Below are positions 18,132-26,709 of a DNA stretch of 64,000 nt, piece after piece. Position numbers and translations under genes: made by a program. Within the stretch, counting starts at the first letter, position 1. Every line of letters begins with the position of its first letter. The DNA comes from Clostridia bacterium. Its GTDB lineage: Bacteria > Bacillota > Clostridia > Christensenellales > Aristaeellaceae. The notes under the pieces were generated by a model that did not search any database, had not been told where the DNA came from, and was given only the letters and a program-made list of their open reading frames with translations. The stretch lies in NCBI GenBank assembly GCA_017395685.1, contig JAFQOD010000004.1, positions 1-64,000 on the forward strand, read 5' to 3'.

Positions 18132-18294
18132 AGGGGGAAACATCCTTTCCGGGAAATTATGATGCTTTAGTTTAGCATAGAAATGGGGAAAACTCAATCA
18201 CGGGAAGCAGAGGAAAATGCTGTTCCAATAAAAGAGGATATTTTTCACCTCGGATAAACACCCTGATAATTGCGTATTTCCTCTTCACAAATGG

Positions 18295-18312
18295 GAACAT
18301 ATGTGCTATAAT
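18295..18312 (+). promoter_or_regulatory. uvrA promoter with near-consensus LexA box
   Basis: GAACATATGTGC (18295-18306) matches the Gram-positive SOS box GAAC-N4-GTTC with one mismatch. It abuts TATAAT (18307-18312), with TG at 18304-18305 giving an extended -10. A LexA dimer here would block RNA polymerase, as expected for uvrA. Confidence 0.7.
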
Positions 18313-18342: not shown

Positions 18343-21153
18343 ATGGAAGATAAGATTATTGTCCGGGGCGCCCGGCAGCATAATTTGAAGAATGTAGATA
18401 TAACGATCCCCCGGGATCAGCTGGTGGTGTTTACCGGGCTTTCCGGCTCGGGCAAATCCTCCCTGGCCTTTGATACCATTTATGCAGAGGGGCAGAGGCG
18501 GTATGTGGAAAGCATGTCCTCTTATGCCCGTCAGTTTTTGGGGCAGATGGATAAGCCGGAGGTGGATTCCATCGAAGGCCTGTCCCCGGCCATTTCCATC
18601 GATCAGAAGACCACTGCCCGCAATCCCCGGTCCACTGTGGGCACGGTGACGGAAATCCACGATTATCTGAGGCTGATGTATGCCCGGGCCGGTGTGCCCC
18701 ACTGCCCCCAGTGCGGCAAGGAAATCAAGCAGCAGACGGTGGATCAGATGGTGGATGCCATTCTGGCCCTGCCGGAGGGCACCAGGCTGCAGATCATGGC
18801 CCCGGTGGTGCGGGCACGGAAGGGCGAGCATACGAAGCTGCTGGAGGATGCCCGGAAGGGCGGCTTTGTCCGGGTGCGCATTGATGGGGAAATGTATGAA
18901 CTGGATGATGTGCCTGCATTGGATAAACAGAAAAAGCATCAGATTGATCTGGTGGTGGATCGGCTGGTGGTGCGGCCCGGCATTCAGCAGCGGCTTTCCG
19001 ACAGCCTGGAAACGGCCATGCAGCAATCCGGGGGCCTGGCTGCCGCCCAGATTGTGCCGGATAATACGGAAATGCTTTTTTCCCAGAATTATGCCTGTCC
19101 CGATTGCGGCGTGAATATTGAGGAACTGGCCCCCCGGATGTTTTCCTTCAATAATCCCTACGGCGCATGCCCCACCTGCAGCGGCCTGGGGGAATTGCTG
19201 AAGGTGAGCGCCGATCTGGTGATGCCTGACCGCAATCTTTCCCTGAATGAAGGGGCCATATCCTGTATGGGATGGAGCAGCAGCCAGGAGGGCAATTCCT
19301 CCGCCCATGCCATGTTCCAGGCCATTGCCGATCATTACGGCTTTTCCATGGATACGCCGGTAAAGGATCTGCCCCAGGAAATGATTGATAAGATCCTCTA
19401 TGGCACCGGCAGCCAGAAAATCAAAATTAAATTTGATACCGGTTCCTATCAGACCACCTTTGAAGGGGTGATCCCTTCTCTGGAGCGCAGATACCGGGAA
19501 ACCCAGAGCGATGGCATGAAGGCCGCCTATGAGGAATATATGGCCCATGAAACCTGCCCGGATTGCAAGGGACGGCGGCTGAAACCGGAAGCCCTGGCCG
19601 TTACGGTGGGAGATAAGAATATTGCCGAAATCAGCGAATGGAATATCCGGAAGACCCGGGATTTCCTTTCCAGTCTCACGCTTTCGGAAAAGGATACCAT
19701 GATCGCCACCCCCATCCTCCGGGAAGTGGATGCAAGGCTGGGCTTTCTGTGCGATGTAGGCCTGGATTATCTTACCCTCTCCCGGGCGGCGGCCACCCTT
19801 TCCGGCGGAGAGGCCCAGCGCATCCGTCTGGCCACTCAGATTGGCAGCGGCCTGGTGGGCGTGCTCTATATTCTGGATGAGCCTTCTATTGGTCTGCATC
19901 AAAGGGATAATGCCCGGCTGCTGAAAACGCTGCGGCATCTGCAGGAATTGGGCAATACCCTGATCGTAGTGGAGCATGATGAAGAGACCCTGCGGGCGGC
20001 GGATTTTCTGGTGGATATCGGCCCGGGGGCCGGGGAGCACGGGGGCCATATTGTGGCCAAAGGCAGTGTGGAAGATGTGATGGCCGTCCCTCAATCCATT
20101 ACCGGCCAGTATCTCAGCGGCAAAAAGAAAATCTCTGTGCCTGATGCCCGGCGCTTGCCCCAGGGATGGCTTACGGTAAAAGGCGCCCGGGAGCATAACC
20201 TGAAGAATATTGACGTCAATTTTCCCTTGGGTCTTTTCTGCTGCGTTACCGGTGTTTCCGGCAGCGGCAAGAGCAGCCTGGTCAATTCTATTCTGTATGG
20301 CGCCCTGGCCCATCTGCTCAACCGGGCCCGTCCCCGGAAGGCAGATTATGACGGAATTGTTGGCGTGGAGCAGCTGGACAAGATCATCAATATCGATCAG
20401 TCTCCCATCGGGCGCACTCCCCGGTCCAATCCGGCCACCTATACGGGGCTGTTTGATCTGATCAGGAAGGTATTTGCCCAGCAGGTGGAGGCCAAAATCC
20501 GGGGGTATAAGGAAAACCGTTTCTCCTTCAATGTGAAGGGGGGGCGGTGCGAGGCTTGCAGCGGCGATGGCCTGCTGAAAATTGAAATGCACTTCATGGC
20601 GGATATTTATGTGCCCTGCGAGGTATGCCGGGGCAAGCGCTATAACCGGGAAACGCTGGAGGTGAAATTCAAGGGCCTGTCCATTGCGGATGTATTGGAT
20701 CTGACGGTGGAAGAAGCTATGGGCGTCTTTGAAACCCATCAGAATATCATGCAGAAGCTGCGCACCCTCTACGATGTGGGCCTTGGATATATGCGGTTGG
20801 GCCAGCCCAGCACCACCCTGTCCGGCGGGGAGGCCCAGCGGGTGAAGCTGGCCACGGAACTGAGCCGCAGGGCTACAGGGCGCACCCTGATTCTGCTGGA
20901 TGAACCTACCACCGGATTGCATATGGATGATGTGAGCCGGCTGGTGAAGGTGCTGCAGCGGCTTACCGATGCAGGCAATACGGTATTGGTGATTGAGCAT
21001 AATCTGGATATCATCAAGACAGCCGATTATATCATTGATCTGGGGCCGGAGGGCGGCGACGGCGGCGGTACCATCGTGGCCCAGGGCACCCCGGAGGAAG
21101 TAGCCAAGGCGGATGGCAGCTATACCGCCAAATTCCTTCGCCAGGTGCTGTAA
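18343..21153 (+). CDS. uvrA: excinuclease ABC subunit A
   Basis: This 936-aa damage-recognition ATPase of nucleotide excision repair has two ABC modules. The first has [24 protein letters not shown] and [15 protein letters not shown]; the second has [24 protein letters not shown] and [15 protein letters not shown]. Zinc modules CPQCG, CPDC...CPTC and CEACSGDG...CEVCRGKR are present. Length fits the family (about 940). ATG 18343 follows GGAGG; a nearby upstream ATG overlaps that site. The promoter carries an SOS box. Confidence 0.98.
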
Positions 21154-21172
21154 GAGGCTCAGGCTTCATGAT

Positions 21173-21212
21173 CGGTTTTGCGGGGAGGGACTAAACCCTT
21201 CTCCGCAAAACG
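21173..21212. repeat. inverted repeat after uvrA
   Basis: GTTTTGCGG (21175-21183) pairs with CCGCAAAAC (21203-21211), with partial pairing inside. No T-tract follows, so termination efficiency is doubtful. Confidence 0.4.
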
Positions 21213-21218
21213 ATAAAA

Positions 21219-21230
21219 GAACATATGTTC
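21219..21230. promoter_or_regulatory. perfect LexA (SOS) box
   Basis: GAACATATGTTC is a perfect palindrome fitting the Gram-positive LexA consensus GAAC-N4-GTTC. It lies about 30 bp upstream of the radical SAM gene start and shares its GAACATATGT core with the uvrA box. Confidence 0.75.
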
Positions 21231-21260
21231 TTGATTGGAAAATGATGGATATAAAAGGCG

Positions 21261-22160
21261 GTGAAGGCAGTGGAATATATTCCGGCCAAAACGATTGTTT
21301 CTTCCCGGTATGAGGGGGGATGGTTTGGCAGCAATTACACCATGAATCTGTATAAGGGCTGCTGCCATGGCTGCATCTATTGCGACAGCCGCAGCGAATG
21401 CTATCAGATCCGGGATTTTGACCGGGTCAAGGCCAAGGAAAATGCCCTGGAAACCATTGCCCGGGATTTGCGGGGCAAGCGGAAAAAGGGCATGGTGATC
21501 ACCGGCGCCATGAGCGATCCCTATAATCCTTTTGAGGAAAAGCTGCGTCTTACCCGGGGCGCCCTGGAGCTGTTGGATCGCTATGGCTTCGGCGCGGCCA
21601 TTGATACCAAATCCCCGCTGGTCACCAGGGATACGGATATCCTGAAAAGCATTCAGCGTCATTCGCCGGTATCGGTAAGCATCACCATCACCACGGCGGA
21701 AGATGAATTGTGCAGGAAAATTGAGCGGCATGTGCCGGTAAGCACTGAACGGTTTGAGGCGATTTCGGAATTATCCCGGCAAGGCATTCCCTGCGGCATT
21801 CTGCTGATGCCTCTGCTGCCCTTTATCAACGACACAGAAAAGAATGTGCGCGCCATTGTACGCAAAGCAAAGGAAGCGGGGGCCAGATGGATTTTTGCCT
21901 ATCCCGGCATGGGGGTGACGCTGCGGCAGAATCAGCGGGTATATTTTTATGACCGACTGGATGAAAGCTTTCCAGGGATGAGGGAAAAATATCTGCAGGT
22001 ATACGGGGATCAATATGACTGCGTTTCCCCAAGGGCTAAAGACCTGTGGCAGGAACTGATCCGTGCCTGTGATGAAAACGGGCTGCTTTATCGGATGGAG
22101 GATATCAGCCTGTTTCTTCATGCCCCTTACCGGGTGCAGCAGACATCCCTGTTTGAATGA
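21261..22160 (+). CDS. radical SAM protein of the spore-photoproduct-lyase-like family
   Basis: This 299-aa protein has the iron-sulfur motif C-x3-C-x2-C in YKGCCHGCIYCDSRSECYQ (about residues 33-40), then GAMSDPYNPFE, DTKSPLVTRDTDIL and TITTAEDELCRKIE. These match the SPL-like radical SAM proteins (COG1533), which generate a 5'-deoxyadenosyl radical; the substrate of the non-SPL members is not established. The start is GTG 21261 or 21270. It sits just behind uvrA with its own perfect SOS box, suggesting a DNA-damage role. Confidence 0.8.
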   Translation: MKAVEYIPAKTIVSSRYEGGWFGSNYTMNLYKGCCHGCIYCDSRSECYQIRDFDRVKAKENALETIARDLRGKRKKGMVITGAMSDPYNPFEEKLRLTRGALELLDRYGFGAAIDTKSPLVTRDTDILKSIQRHSPVSVSITITTAEDELCRKIERHVPVSTERFEAISELSRQGIPCGILLMPLLPFINDTEKNVRAIVRKAKEAGARWIFAYPGMGVTLRQNQRVYFYDRLDESFPGMREKYLQVYGDQYDCVSPRAKDLWQELIRACDENGLLYRMEDISLFLHAPYRVQQTSLFE

Positions 22161-22231: not shown

Positions 22232-23362
22232 ATGGCCTTTGAAAAACTGACGGCATATCTGGATCAACTGGATCAGCATGGCATTCCGGCCCGGGATCTG
22301 GTGATTTACCGGGATCATGAATTGGTCTATCGCCATTTTTCCGGTGTTTCCGATGGGGCAGGCAAGGTGCCTGTGCAGGGAAAGGAGCATTATCTGCTTT
22401 ATTCTTGCACCAAGGTATTCACTACCTGCTGCATGATGCAACTCATCGGCCAGGGGAAAATCGGCCTGGATGATCCGGTATCCGATTATCTGCCAGCCTA
22501 TGCTGATCTGAAAGTGCGGGATGGGGCCATCTTCCGCCCGGCAAAAAAGATCATGACCATCCGTCATCTGATGAGCATGCAGGGCGGCCTGGATTATGAT
22601 ATGGAATTTGCCATGCGGCTGGTAGTGCCTCATGTTCCAAAGGGAGAGGCTACCACCCGGCAGATGATCGATGCCCTGGCCCTCAAGCCCCTTTCCTTTG
22701 ATCCTGGTACCGATTGGCAGTACAGCCTGTGCCATGATGTGCTGGGGGCGGTGATCGAGGTGGTCAGCGGGAAGAAACTTTCCGAATATATGAAAGAGAA
22801 TATCTTTGATCCCCTGGGCATTTCCGGCCTTACCTTCCATCCCGATGAGGATACGGTGAAAAATCTATGCGCCCAGTATCAGTATCATGGGCAGGATCAG
22901 TCCTTTGAATTGCTCCATGAACAGGATGAAGAGGATCCCGCCCCCCTCTATGAAAGCGGCGGCGGGGGGCTGATCGGCAATGTTTCCGATTGTATCCGGT
23001 TTGCGGATGCCATTGCCTGCGGCGGCAAGGGCTGGAACGGGGCGGAGATCCTGGCCCCCAGCCTGATTCAATTGTGGCGGGCAAATCAGCTTTGCCCCAA
23101 GGGAAGGCAATCCTTTGACCATTGGAACCGGCATGGCTATTCCTACGCCCTGGGTGTGCGCACCCGTGTGGATACGGAAAAGGGCGGCCGGGGCCCTGTC
23201 GGGGAATTCGGCTGGGACGGCGCTGCCGGCGCCTGGATGATGATCGATCCTGAGCATCATCTGTCCGCCTTCTATGCCCAGCATGTGCGGGGCTATGGCT
23301 ATAGCTACGATGTGGTGCATCCCGATCTGCGCAATCTGATCTACGAGGCGCTGGAACTGTAA
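22232..23362 (+). CDS. serine beta-lactamase-fold hydrolase (class C-like esterase)
   Basis: This 376-aa protein has the SxxK motif in LLYSCTKVFTTCC (Ser nucleophile, about residues 61-64), a YSL in place of the usual Y-x-N (QYSLCHDVLGAVIEVVSG), and WDGAAG in place of the H/K-x-G triad near the C-terminus. No signal peptide is seen, so it acts inside the cell, as many class-C-like esterases do. The substrate is unknown. AAAAGGGGTGG precedes ATG 22232. It probably forms a unit with the small hydrolase gene behind. Confidence 0.82.
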   Translation: MAFEKLTAYLDQLDQHGIPARDLVIYRDHELVYRHFSGVSDGAGKVPVQGKEHYLLYSCTKVFTTCCMMQLIGQGKIGLDDPVSDYLPAYADLKVRDGAIFRPAKKIMTIRHLMSMQGGLDYDMEFAMRLVVPHVPKGEATTRQMIDALALKPLSFDPGTDWQYSLCHDVLGAVIEVVSGKKLSEYMKENIFDPLGISGLTFHPDEDTVKNLCAQYQYHGQDQSFELLHEQDEEDPAPLYESGGGGLIGNVSDCIRFADAIACGGKGWNGAEILAPSLIQLWRANQLCPKGRQSFDHWNRHGYSYALGVRTRVDTEKGGRGPVGEFGWDGAAGAWMMIDPEHHLSAFYAQHVRGYGYSYDVVHPDLRNLIYEALEL

Positions 23363-23387
23363 TGTTTTTGGGGTTAAAGAAGAGAAT

Positions 23388-23930
23388 ATGAAAAAGGTAT
23401 TGCTGCTGGGGGATTCCCGCAGGATGGGCTATGAGCCTTTTGTGCGGAAGCTGCTGGAAGGAAAGGCAGAGGTATATGCCCCCAATGAGAATGGCCGCTG
23501 GGCGGGATATACCCTTAATTCCCTGCGCTTCTGGCTGAATGATTTTCCGGCCCCTGATATTGTGCATTGGTCCTGCGGGCTTTGGGATCTTGGGGATGAT
23601 TATCATATCGGCCGTCCCTTTTCTCTTCCCGAGGAATACGAGAGCGCTGTAGAGCGGACAGTGATCGTGCTACGGAAATTGTTCCCTGGGGTCAAGATTA
23701 TTTTCGGCACCACCATGCCGGTAGGGGCCGGAGATGCAACCGGTATCCGTAATTATAATGCCATTATGTCAAGGGTAGCAAAAAAAGAAGGCATCCCGGT
23801 GGATGACCTCTTTTCCCTCATGCACGATAAAATGGTGACTTATGACCGGGGGGACGGCCTGCATCTCAATGACGAGGGCAACGCCATGGTGGCCGCCCAG
23901 GTGGTCAGTGCCATCGAAGAATATCTATGA
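23388..23930 (+). CDS. SGNH/GDSL-family hydrolase
   Basis: This 180-aa protein has block I LLLGDSRRMGYEPFV (Ser nucleophile), a central WSCGLWDLGDD in place of the usual G-x-N-D, and block V DGLHLNDEGNAMV with catalytic Asp/His. No signal peptide is present. It is probably a deacetylase or esterase. It starts 25 bp after the beta-lactamase-fold gene, so they are likely co-transcribed. Confidence 0.82.
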   Translation: MKKVLLLGDSRRMGYEPFVRKLLEGKAEVYAPNENGRWAGYTLNSLRFWLNDFPAPDIVHWSCGLWDLGDDYHIGRPFSLPEEYESAVERTVIVLRKLFPGVKIIFGTTMPVGAGDATGIRNYNAIMSRVAKKEGIPVDDLFSLMHDKMVTYDRGDGLHLNDEGNAMVAAQVVSAIEEYL

Positions 23931-23988: not shown

Positions 23989-26709
23989 TCAGTCAATGAT
24001 GGCCATCATGGCAGCGATTTCATCGGCATTCGCGGAGAACCGCTTGACACCAATGCCTTCGATATCATAGTGGGCAGTCAGTTCCACAGCGATGATCACC
24101 TTGGTATCAGCGCCGAAGGTTTCAGCAGTATTGATGGCAGCTCCATAGGAGGCTTCTATAGCATTGCCAGCCAGCAGATCGGCCTTGGAGGCATAGAGCT
24201 TCAAGGTTTCGGCGACAACTTTGATCTGCCAGGAGTTGGTATCATAGCTCACGGTGAGGGTGCCGTTGGCAACCACGACGGTGACAGTACCAACCTCATA
24301 GCGGTTAGAAGCAACCAGGGGCAGGGCGTAGGTGGCGTCCACAGACAGATCGATGGGGGTAACACGGTTCCAAACATTGCCGCCCAGTTCCTTCATGGAG
24401 GGGCCAAAGGCAGTCAGGGTGGCGTTATACTTCATGTTGGAAATGGGGGCGATCACTTCGGTCTTGCCGGACTTGGCGCCGCAAACAGAGCAGATTTCTT
24501 CCTTCAGGCCATCACTTTCGGTGGTGGGTTCCTTGGTAATAACCATTTCCCACTTGTGGCCCAGAGCATCCACAACTTCCTGAGCAACCAGTACTTCGTT
24601 GCAAACGGAGCAATGCTTACCTTCGGTCAGGCCAGTTTCGGTGCAGGTGGGGGCAACAGCAGCATCCACAACTTCAGTATGGCCCAGAGCATCCACAACT
24701 TCCTGAGCAACCAGCACTTCATTGCAAACGGAGCAATGCTTGCCTTCGGTCAGACCAGTTTCGGTGCAGGTGGGAGCAACAGCAGCATCCACAACTTCGG
24801 TGTGGCCCAGAGCAGCAACTACTTCCTGGGCAACCAGAACCTTATCACACTTTACGCACTTTTCACCTTCGGTCAAGCCGGTTTCGGTGCAGGTGGGGGC
24901 AACAGCGGGAATCACTTCGGTTTCCTCATGGAAGCAGGGCTTGTGCTCAATTCGGCCGCACAGTTCGCAGATGTAGCCGTTGGGCGTGAATTCCTTCCAC
25001 TGATGGGGGCAATCCTCGTCGCCTTCGGGCAGATCGGGGCTGGGAACGGGATCGGGCTTATCGGTGGGATTGTTATTGGTGACCTTGCCGCACTTCTTGC
25101 AGAACCAGCCGCCAAAGCTGAAGACGACCCAATCATGCTCGCAGGTATCTTCTTCGGGTTCTTCGGGCTCCACAACGGGGGGATTCACAACGGACTCGTC
25201 CGTGGTGGTCGCGCCGCACTTGGTGCAGAAGTAACCATTGTGGGTCACCTGCGTCCAATTGTGCTCGCAAGGATCTTCTTCTTCGGGCTCTTCAAAGAGG
25301 GAATCATCGACGGAGATGTAGCCGCACAGCCGGCAGTAGCCAGCGCCGAAGGAGAACTCAATCCAGTCGTGCGCATCGGGATCGATGGGCAGTTCCACAT
25401 TGTCGTTCAGCACTTCTTCGCAGATATCGCAAACTTCCTGGCCAACGCCTTCCTTCTTGCAGGTGGCGGGGGTCAGAGTTTCAATGTGAGAATCCGCATG
25501 GTCGCATACTTCGGGTTCCAGGGGATCGAGATCGGTGGAATTGGCGCCGCACTTGATGCAGTAGTAAGCGCCAAAGGAGAGGGATACCCACTCATGCTCG
25601 TCGCAGGGGTTCTCAATGGGCTTGTCTTCTTCCAGATCGTCGGGAGTGACAACCTTGTCCTTGACCGCGCTGCAGATGGTGCAGAAGCTGCCGGGGCCGA
25701 AGGTGATCCAGTTGTGGGCTTCCGCGTCAACGGGAATAGACTCGGTCTCAACCACAACGCCGCAGGCGTCGCAGATCACATTCGCGGTGCCTTCATTCAT
25801 GCAGTCAGGCTCGGAAACGGTAACCTTGCTGGTGGCGGTGTGCTTGCAGACGAAGCTGCAGTTGGTGCAGGCGCCGTTTACCAGGTTGTGCATGGAGGCA
25901 GCCTCGGTGGTCACCTTGCCGCAAACGGTGCACTTCACGGGAATGGTGCAGTCGCCGGTGTTCTCGCCGGGGATGTGGGAAGACGCAGCGGGGACAGCCT
26001 CCTTGCCGCAGATGGCGCAAGCGACCGCGGTGGTGCAATCGCCGTCGTCCTCAGCGGGGGTGTGGGCAGCAGCGCCCGGAGTCACGACCACATCACAGTA
26101 AGCGCATTTGATGCCGGTCGTGCAGTCACCGTCGTCGTCACCTTCCACATGAGCGTTCCTGCCGGGAACAGCATCCTTTTCGCAATTGGCGCAAGGAATG
26201 GCAGTGGTGCAATCGCCGTCATCGGCAGAGAGCGTATGATAGGTGGCAGCAACAGCCTCCTTGCCGCAAACTGCGCAAGGAATGGCAGTGGTGCAATCGC
26301 CGTCATCCGCAGCGGGCGTATGCTTACCCGCAGCCACAGCTACCTTACCGCATACCGTGCAATTGATTGCAGTGGTGCAATCGCCGTCGTCTGCGCCAGG
26401 GGTATGCTCAACGGGCTCATGAACAACCTTCGAGCAATTAGGGCAGTACACCTTTTCGGTGCAATCAGTGACCACTGCGTTTGCGTGGTTACAAATCTCC
26501 ATTTCACGATGGCGACTTTTCGAGTGTCCACACACGCATCTACCTGTGAAATTCAAAACATCCGGATCTTTTTCGTAACTGGTACAGTCGCAACCTAGGT
26601 CTGTACAAACAAGCGACGTTTCCGCATGCGCATGCTGATGCACATCCAGCACAGGCATCATGGTCAGCAGCATTGCCAGAACCATGACCAGAGAAAGACT
26701 TTTTTTCAT
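23989..26709 (-). CDS. large secreted CxxC-repeat protein
   Basis: This 906-aa protein has a signal peptide ending in a His-rich stretch (DVHQHAHA). Three cysteine repeat families follow. First come about six 28-29-residue units of H-T-P[18 protein letters not shown] (about 95-270). Then come about six H-x-W-...-C-x-x-C units separated by acidic, Pro-rich linkers (about 315-600). Last are three 41-residue units with [14 protein letters not shown] and CSVC (about 620-730), 123 bp apart in the DNA. The last 170 residues lack cysteine. The paired CxxC motifs suggest metal or disulfide stabilised surface modules; function is unknown. AAAGGAGAGG precedes the ATG. Its promoter region looks invertible. 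Confidence 0.85.
24580..24880. repeat. 123-bp direct repeats inside the CxxC gene
   Basis: Near-identical 123-bp units (41 codons) recur; for example CTTCGGTCAG at 24621 and CTTCGGTCAG at 24744 begin equivalent points. Such repeats can change copy number by slippage or recombination. Confidence 0.8.

Follow-up and report, generated by a model that had tools for sequence, protein, structure and literature searches.

A LexA-boxed, SplB-like radical SAM gene beside uvrA in a Clostridial genome carries a putative sliding-clamp-binding tail

The locus described here bears on the role of SplB-like proteins beyond the repair of true spore photoproduct. In the window (the whole stretch of DNA analysed, 64,000 nucleotides long), a radical SAM gene resembling that for spore photoproduct lyase (SPL), hereafter ‘rSAM’, follows uvrA, and a perfect palindrome of the LexA type, GAACATATGTTC, stands before it (Table 1). 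An earlier note on this DNA had reported such an SOS box just upstream of the gene and a near-identical one at uvrA next door. Both are where it placed them, and GAACATATGTTC and the uvrA box, GAACATATGTGC, are identical at 11 of 12 positions. The note went on to propose SOS control and a role in DNA repair, a view that is well supported, though it is not new, having been published earlier for such genes. SOS control was to be expected, then; the new point, absent from the earlier note, is a short C-terminal tail of the type that binds the sliding clamp, DnaN.

Table 1. Features of the uvrA–rSAM region, with positions in the window
Feature	Position	Strand	Evidence
uvrA promoter, TTCACA-N17-TATAAT, overlapping the LexA operator	18284-18312	+	promoter scan; same-genus conservation
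LexA-type operator of uvrA, GAACATATGTGC	18295-18306	+	GAAC-N4-GTGC in 25/25 same-genus uvrA promoters
uvrA, excinuclease ABC subunit A	18343-21153	+	NCBIfam UvrA, 1544.5 bits
Strong hairpin in the uvrA–rSAM spacer, 5' of the box	21171-21214	+	z = -5.3; DNA in no relative
LexA-type operator of rSAM gene, perfect palindrome GAACATATGTTC	21219-21230	+	sequence scan
Radical SAM gene, SPL-like; 296 aa from a GTG start (alternative GTG 21261)	21270-22160	+	Pfam; relatives; AF2
Radical SAM cluster motif, C31-x3-C35-x2-C38	21360-21383	+	invariant in 78 aligned homologues
GAMSDP, residues 79-84, opposite the SPL GAATSDP segment	21504-21521	+	profile alignment with true SPLs
QTSLF (residues 291-295), putative motif for binding DnaN, the sliding clamp	22140-22154	+	111/114 homologues; Q291 conservation; disorder

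The uvrA operator lies between the -35 (TTCACA) and -10 (TATAAT) elements of the uvrA promoter. We read 25 such promoters, the window's and 24 others of the same genus, and because every one keeps the GAAC-N4-GTGC core, we regard the operator as real; the larger arrangement TTCACA...GAACA...GTGCTATAAT is likewise conserved across the genus. Elsewhere in the same genome, lexA is present (TIGR00498, 227 bits, C48), and its promoter has two sites, AAACGTTTGTTT and AAACACACGTTT, the second between -35 and -10. The dinB gene carries GAACAGATGTTC directly after TATAAT, and no box of this type occurs near the start of recA. Judged by their sequences and positions, the lexA, dinB and uvrA sites support the presence of a LexA motif of this type in the organism.

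The rSAM box lies 39 bp before the likely start of the gene, GTG 21270, which we prefer to the alternative upstream GTG because orthologues begin MEYIPAK or MDYIPAK (M[ED]YIPAK). Exact GAACN4GTTC sites number only 15 in the whole 2.83 Mb genome, and the chance that a given gene has one in its upstream 100 bp is therefore about 5e-4. Near-matches to the box, with up to one mismatch, are not above chance in the window (10 versus 14.3 expected), and so it is the position of the box that matters. A promoter scan found no good-scoring sigma-70 promoter at the rSAM box, which may therefore be weak, may use a weak promoter, or may act on read-through only. The spacer that parts uvrA from rSAM in this genome holds, besides this private box, a strong hairpin of eighteen pairs that is restricted to the window genome. 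We considered a classic terminator for this hairpin, and rejected it because no T tract follows on its 3' side.

Among close relatives, SOS control appears to be arranged differently. The nearest orthologues, in genomes G001 (75% identical), G021 (73%), and G027 and G018 (62-63%), have no box of their own before rSAM. In G001, the gene begins 22 bp past the uvrA stop, and in G021 it is separated from uvrA by a NUDIX gene. A second branch (G007, G015 and G011; 43-48% identical) has uvrA, a NUDIX-truA gene and rSAM closely packed. In these five relatives, of two branches, rSAM thus forms a tight operon with uvrA, and the uvrA operator can be read directly in all five, so control would be kept there by another route, the uvrA promoter. 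G027 and G018 have neither the box nor the operon. The earlier note had taken absence of the box from close relatives to speak against SOS control; the box is indeed absent, as we have seen, yet the five uvrA operons may point the other way, and the occurrence of two arrangements in one genus, uvrA operon or own box, adds support to SOS control. The note also asked whether LexA boxes accompany this gene family in other Clostridia; most Clostridial members are without one. Among 80 mostly Clostridial homologues from genome_contigs, a strict GAACN4GTTC scan found no perfect site, and the relaxed form, RAACN4GTTY, occurs at six loci, where about 1.2 would be expected; four of these loci belong to one clade, in which the site precedes TTGACA. 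We therefore reject a general SOS rule for Clostridia, and regard SOS control as an exception in this branch rather than a fixed property. Four homologues from Pseudoflavonifractor/Lawsonibacter (L068, L070, L071 and L072) share AAACN4GTTC just 5' of TTGACA, and are probably a separate case of SOS control.

For other phyla, SOS control of SplB-like genes has already been published, and we reproduce it here with lineage-specific boxes. The SplB-like (COG1533) gene splB is reported as an SOS gene in alpha- and beta-Proteobacteria (PMC3323433), SplB-like genes are reported as SOS members in Bacteroidetes (PMC8565304), and the core Gram-positive SOS set is reported to include ‘a radical SAM protein’ (PMC7739468). 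Perfect LexA boxes of the type proper to each lineage stand just upstream of 10 of 17 plasmid-borne homologues, versus 0.05 expected from shuffles within the same narrow span. The boxes take the form GTTCN7GTTC in Sphingomonas, Shinella, Methylobacterium, Sinorhizobium, Paracoccus and Azospirillum, GAACN4GTTC in Streptomyces and Nonomuraea, and CTGTN8ACAG in Aeromonas. The Sinorhizobium meliloti homologue is an eleventh with a LexA box, beyond these ten. The Legionella homologue has no LexA box upstream; Legionella, to our knowledge, has no LexA.

The rSAM protein belongs to the Radical SAM superfamily by its CxxxCxxC cluster motif and its fold, and matches the Pfam Radical_SAM model at 55.6 bits. 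An AlphaFold (AF2) model built from a 66-sequence alignment is predicted with high confidence (mean pLDDT 94.3, pTM 0.91), and its six best fold matches in the PDB are all spore photoproduct lyase (TM 0.62-0.66). Sequence searches of the PDB, with the protein and with its profile, found no relative; SPL emerges by fold comparison only. The closest described families are those of the SOS genes PA0069 (NF033668) and Rv2578c (NF038135), which share a radical SAM clade with the window protein (E about 1e-42) and, like the window gene, have LexA-type boxes and a C-terminal QxxL[FL] tail. The window protein scores 145 bits against the first, versus a cut-off of 360, and 143 against the second, versus 430, and is a sister branch related to these families but below both curated cut-offs. 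It is without their N-terminal extension, and possesses two cysteines, C44 (about 99% conserved) and C267 (invariant), that mark the Clostridial branch only; these are candidate hydrogen donors. With SPL itself (TIGR04070; PDB 4FHC and related), the protein shares the fold, the radical SAM motif and an aligned GA-x-SDP segment. In Bacillus subtilis SPL, this segment contains the hydrogen-donor cysteine. GAMSDP has no cysteine, a difference that is not decisive alone because Clostridial SPLs also are without one at the aligned position. The activity on thymine dimers that the earlier note suggested looking for draws no support from the active site.

The last residues of the protein, QTSLF, look like a docking tag for DnaN. 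The published consensus for clamp-binding is QL[S/D]LF or QxxLF (PMC12309361), and such motifs are often C-terminal, usually so in transposases (PMC4549789). QTSLF fits the QxxLF form and sits in a tail predicted to be disordered, where the confidence of the model is low (pLDDT 53 in the last block). The pattern Qxx[LFMW][FLIVWMP] occurs in the last 20 residues of 111 of 114 homologues, versus 30 of 1043 background ORFs (2.9%), and a stricter pattern in 105 of 114 (92%), versus six of 1043 (0.6%); these counts are not independent, because the homologues are related, and the stronger point is that tailed homologues span Clostridia, Proteobacteria and Actinobacteria at 26-30% identity. The majority residues of the tail are Q-L-S-[L/F]-F, and in the alignment Q291 is more than 90% conserved, following a linker of variable length. 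None of 20 true SPLs has a tail of this type, nor was one found in the mobile-pair B relative. Of the proteins encoded in the same genome, PolC terminates in QVTLFQL, and QVDLM lies close to the C-terminus of MutS; the short, Q-led hydrophobic motif of such clamp-tethered proteins (PolC, MutS, DinB) is what QTSLF shares. In the literature that we searched, we found no radical SAM enzyme with a clamp-binding motif. The nearest parallel is an archaeal SplB-like gene that lies beside the gene for NreB, a PCNA-binding protein, and for which crosslink repair has been proposed (PMC4929162). The link to a sliding clamp is common to both cases, but the archaeal clamp motif belongs to the Nre protein next door, whereas the window enzyme carries its own putative one. 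Clostridium acetobutylicum, too, has a radical SAM ‘DNA modification/repair’ gene with predicted LexA control (CAC3343-CAC3344; PMC3828012), but this is probably of another radical SAM family, the DUF4130-linked one.

Given the boxes, the uvrA operons, the SPL-like predicted fold and the near-universal tail, we consider it probable that the window gene encodes an SOS-induced radical SAM enzyme that docks on DnaN and reverses DNA lesions. LexA would hold the promoter region off until its RecA-driven cleavage, and upon DNA damage uvrA, for excision repair, and rSAM would rise together. The disordered tail would dock the enzyme on DnaN, and so bring it to the replication fork or to post-replicative gaps, where the [4Fe-4S]/SAM centre would generate the 5'-deoxyadenosyl radical, and a damaged base or base crosslink would be reversed in place. 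Its nearest relatives suggest that the organism lives anaerobically in the gut; if that is the case, it sees little UV, and so crosslinks or adducts seem likelier lesions than photoproducts.

Several other explanations deserve consideration. One is that the box before rSAM is a chance occurrence or a relic, and that expression is constitutive or due to read-through from uvrA. The absence of the box from the closest orthologues, the want of a clear promoter and the unremarkable number of near-matches in the window all favor this, and yet the site is a perfect palindrome, all but one of its positions match the uvrA operator, and it falls in the short uvrA–rSAM spacer, where chance would seldom put it; read-through, moreover, would still place rSAM under the LexA-controlled uvrA promoter. 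We judge this explanation distinctly unlikely. Somewhat easier to entertain, though still unlikely, is the notion that QxSLF is a structural element, or a docking site for some other partner, and that the enzyme works elsewhere than at the replisome. The case for clamp binding comes from sequence, between 0 and 9 residues follow the motif in different homologues, and at position 4 about half have F rather than L. Fit to the consensus, conservation of the glutamine beyond a variable linker and predicted disorder argue for the clamp instead, as does the fact that neither SPL nor the mobile-pair B relative has the motif.

The two remaining explanations concern the substrate. The earlier note had framed the gene as one from outside the spore formers, and this framing does not suit the genome (G000), which has spoIVA and spo0A but, by TIGR04070 search, no true SPL. 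The rSAM protein might then be a substitute, repairing spore photoproduct during outgrowth of a spore former that has no SPL of its own. It alone in the genome matches TIGR04070, and its closest solved fold is SPL, but the match is weak (22.8 bits versus a curated cut-off of 400), the donor position has no cysteine, homologues with clamp-type tails are common among Proteobacteria and Actinobacteria that form no spores, and the control indicated is SOS rather than forespore. This makes a substitute SPL very unlikely. Least probable, in our estimation, is that the enzyme acts on a damaged nucleotide pool or on tRNA, as the NUDIX hydrolase or NUDIX-truA genes directly 5' of rSAM in several relatives might hint. 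That neighbour is a lineage-level association, and SOS control in several phyla, the SPL fold and the clamp-type tail all point to DNA. A DNA lesion met at the replisome remains our preferred reading.

More tentatively, SplB-like radical SAM proteins across bacterial phyla might form a class of replisome-docked, lesion-reversing enzymes, tethered to DnaN through a conserved C-terminal clamp motif, under SOS control in many lineages, and directed at a non-UV lesion such as a crosslink or adduct. We rate this wider proposal as possible, at somewhat less than an even chance. It would make the tail of the enzyme a parallel to the archaeal SplB/PCNA link, and the near-universality of that tail indicates where the lesion should be sought: at replication forks and gaps, and not in dormant DNA.

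A number of side observations were made in the course of this work. An archaeal homologue from Methanobinarius (L090), with a reading frame broken by an internal stop, has the C-terminal sequence VQKNLFDF, similar to the PCNA-binding motif QxxLxxF. A YtkD/MutT-like NUDIX gene, in some cases fused or merged with truA, lies directly 5' of rSAM, with or without uvrA, at seven loci (L099, L100, L106, L107, L108, L110 and L016); six are of this genus, and the NUDIX protein of L016 (genome_contigs) is identical to that of L100. FtsZ, similarly, is a neighbour at seven loci, and we take neither association as functional evidence. On the 3' side of rSAM in the window (22232-23930) are genes for a serine beta-lactamase-fold hydrolase and a GDSL lipase-like protein, neither of which occurs beside rSAM in the relatives searched. 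Beyond them, on the minus strand (23989-26709), is a gene for a large, secreted-looking protein of 906 aa that consists of repeated CxxC units, with near-identical blocks.

Finally, a LexA-type box (RAACN4GTTY) occurs approximately 225-310 bp 5' of spo0A at 11 of 15 same-genus loci, versus about 0.02 expected per locus. Sites of this kind lie at L014 (1501-1512), at L220 (G000:C56:34643-34654), and at the same-genus loci L229-L237 and L239. They recur even though both the core and the flanks differ and the upstream sequences change from locus to locus. The boxes suggest an SOS input to the master regulator of sporulation.
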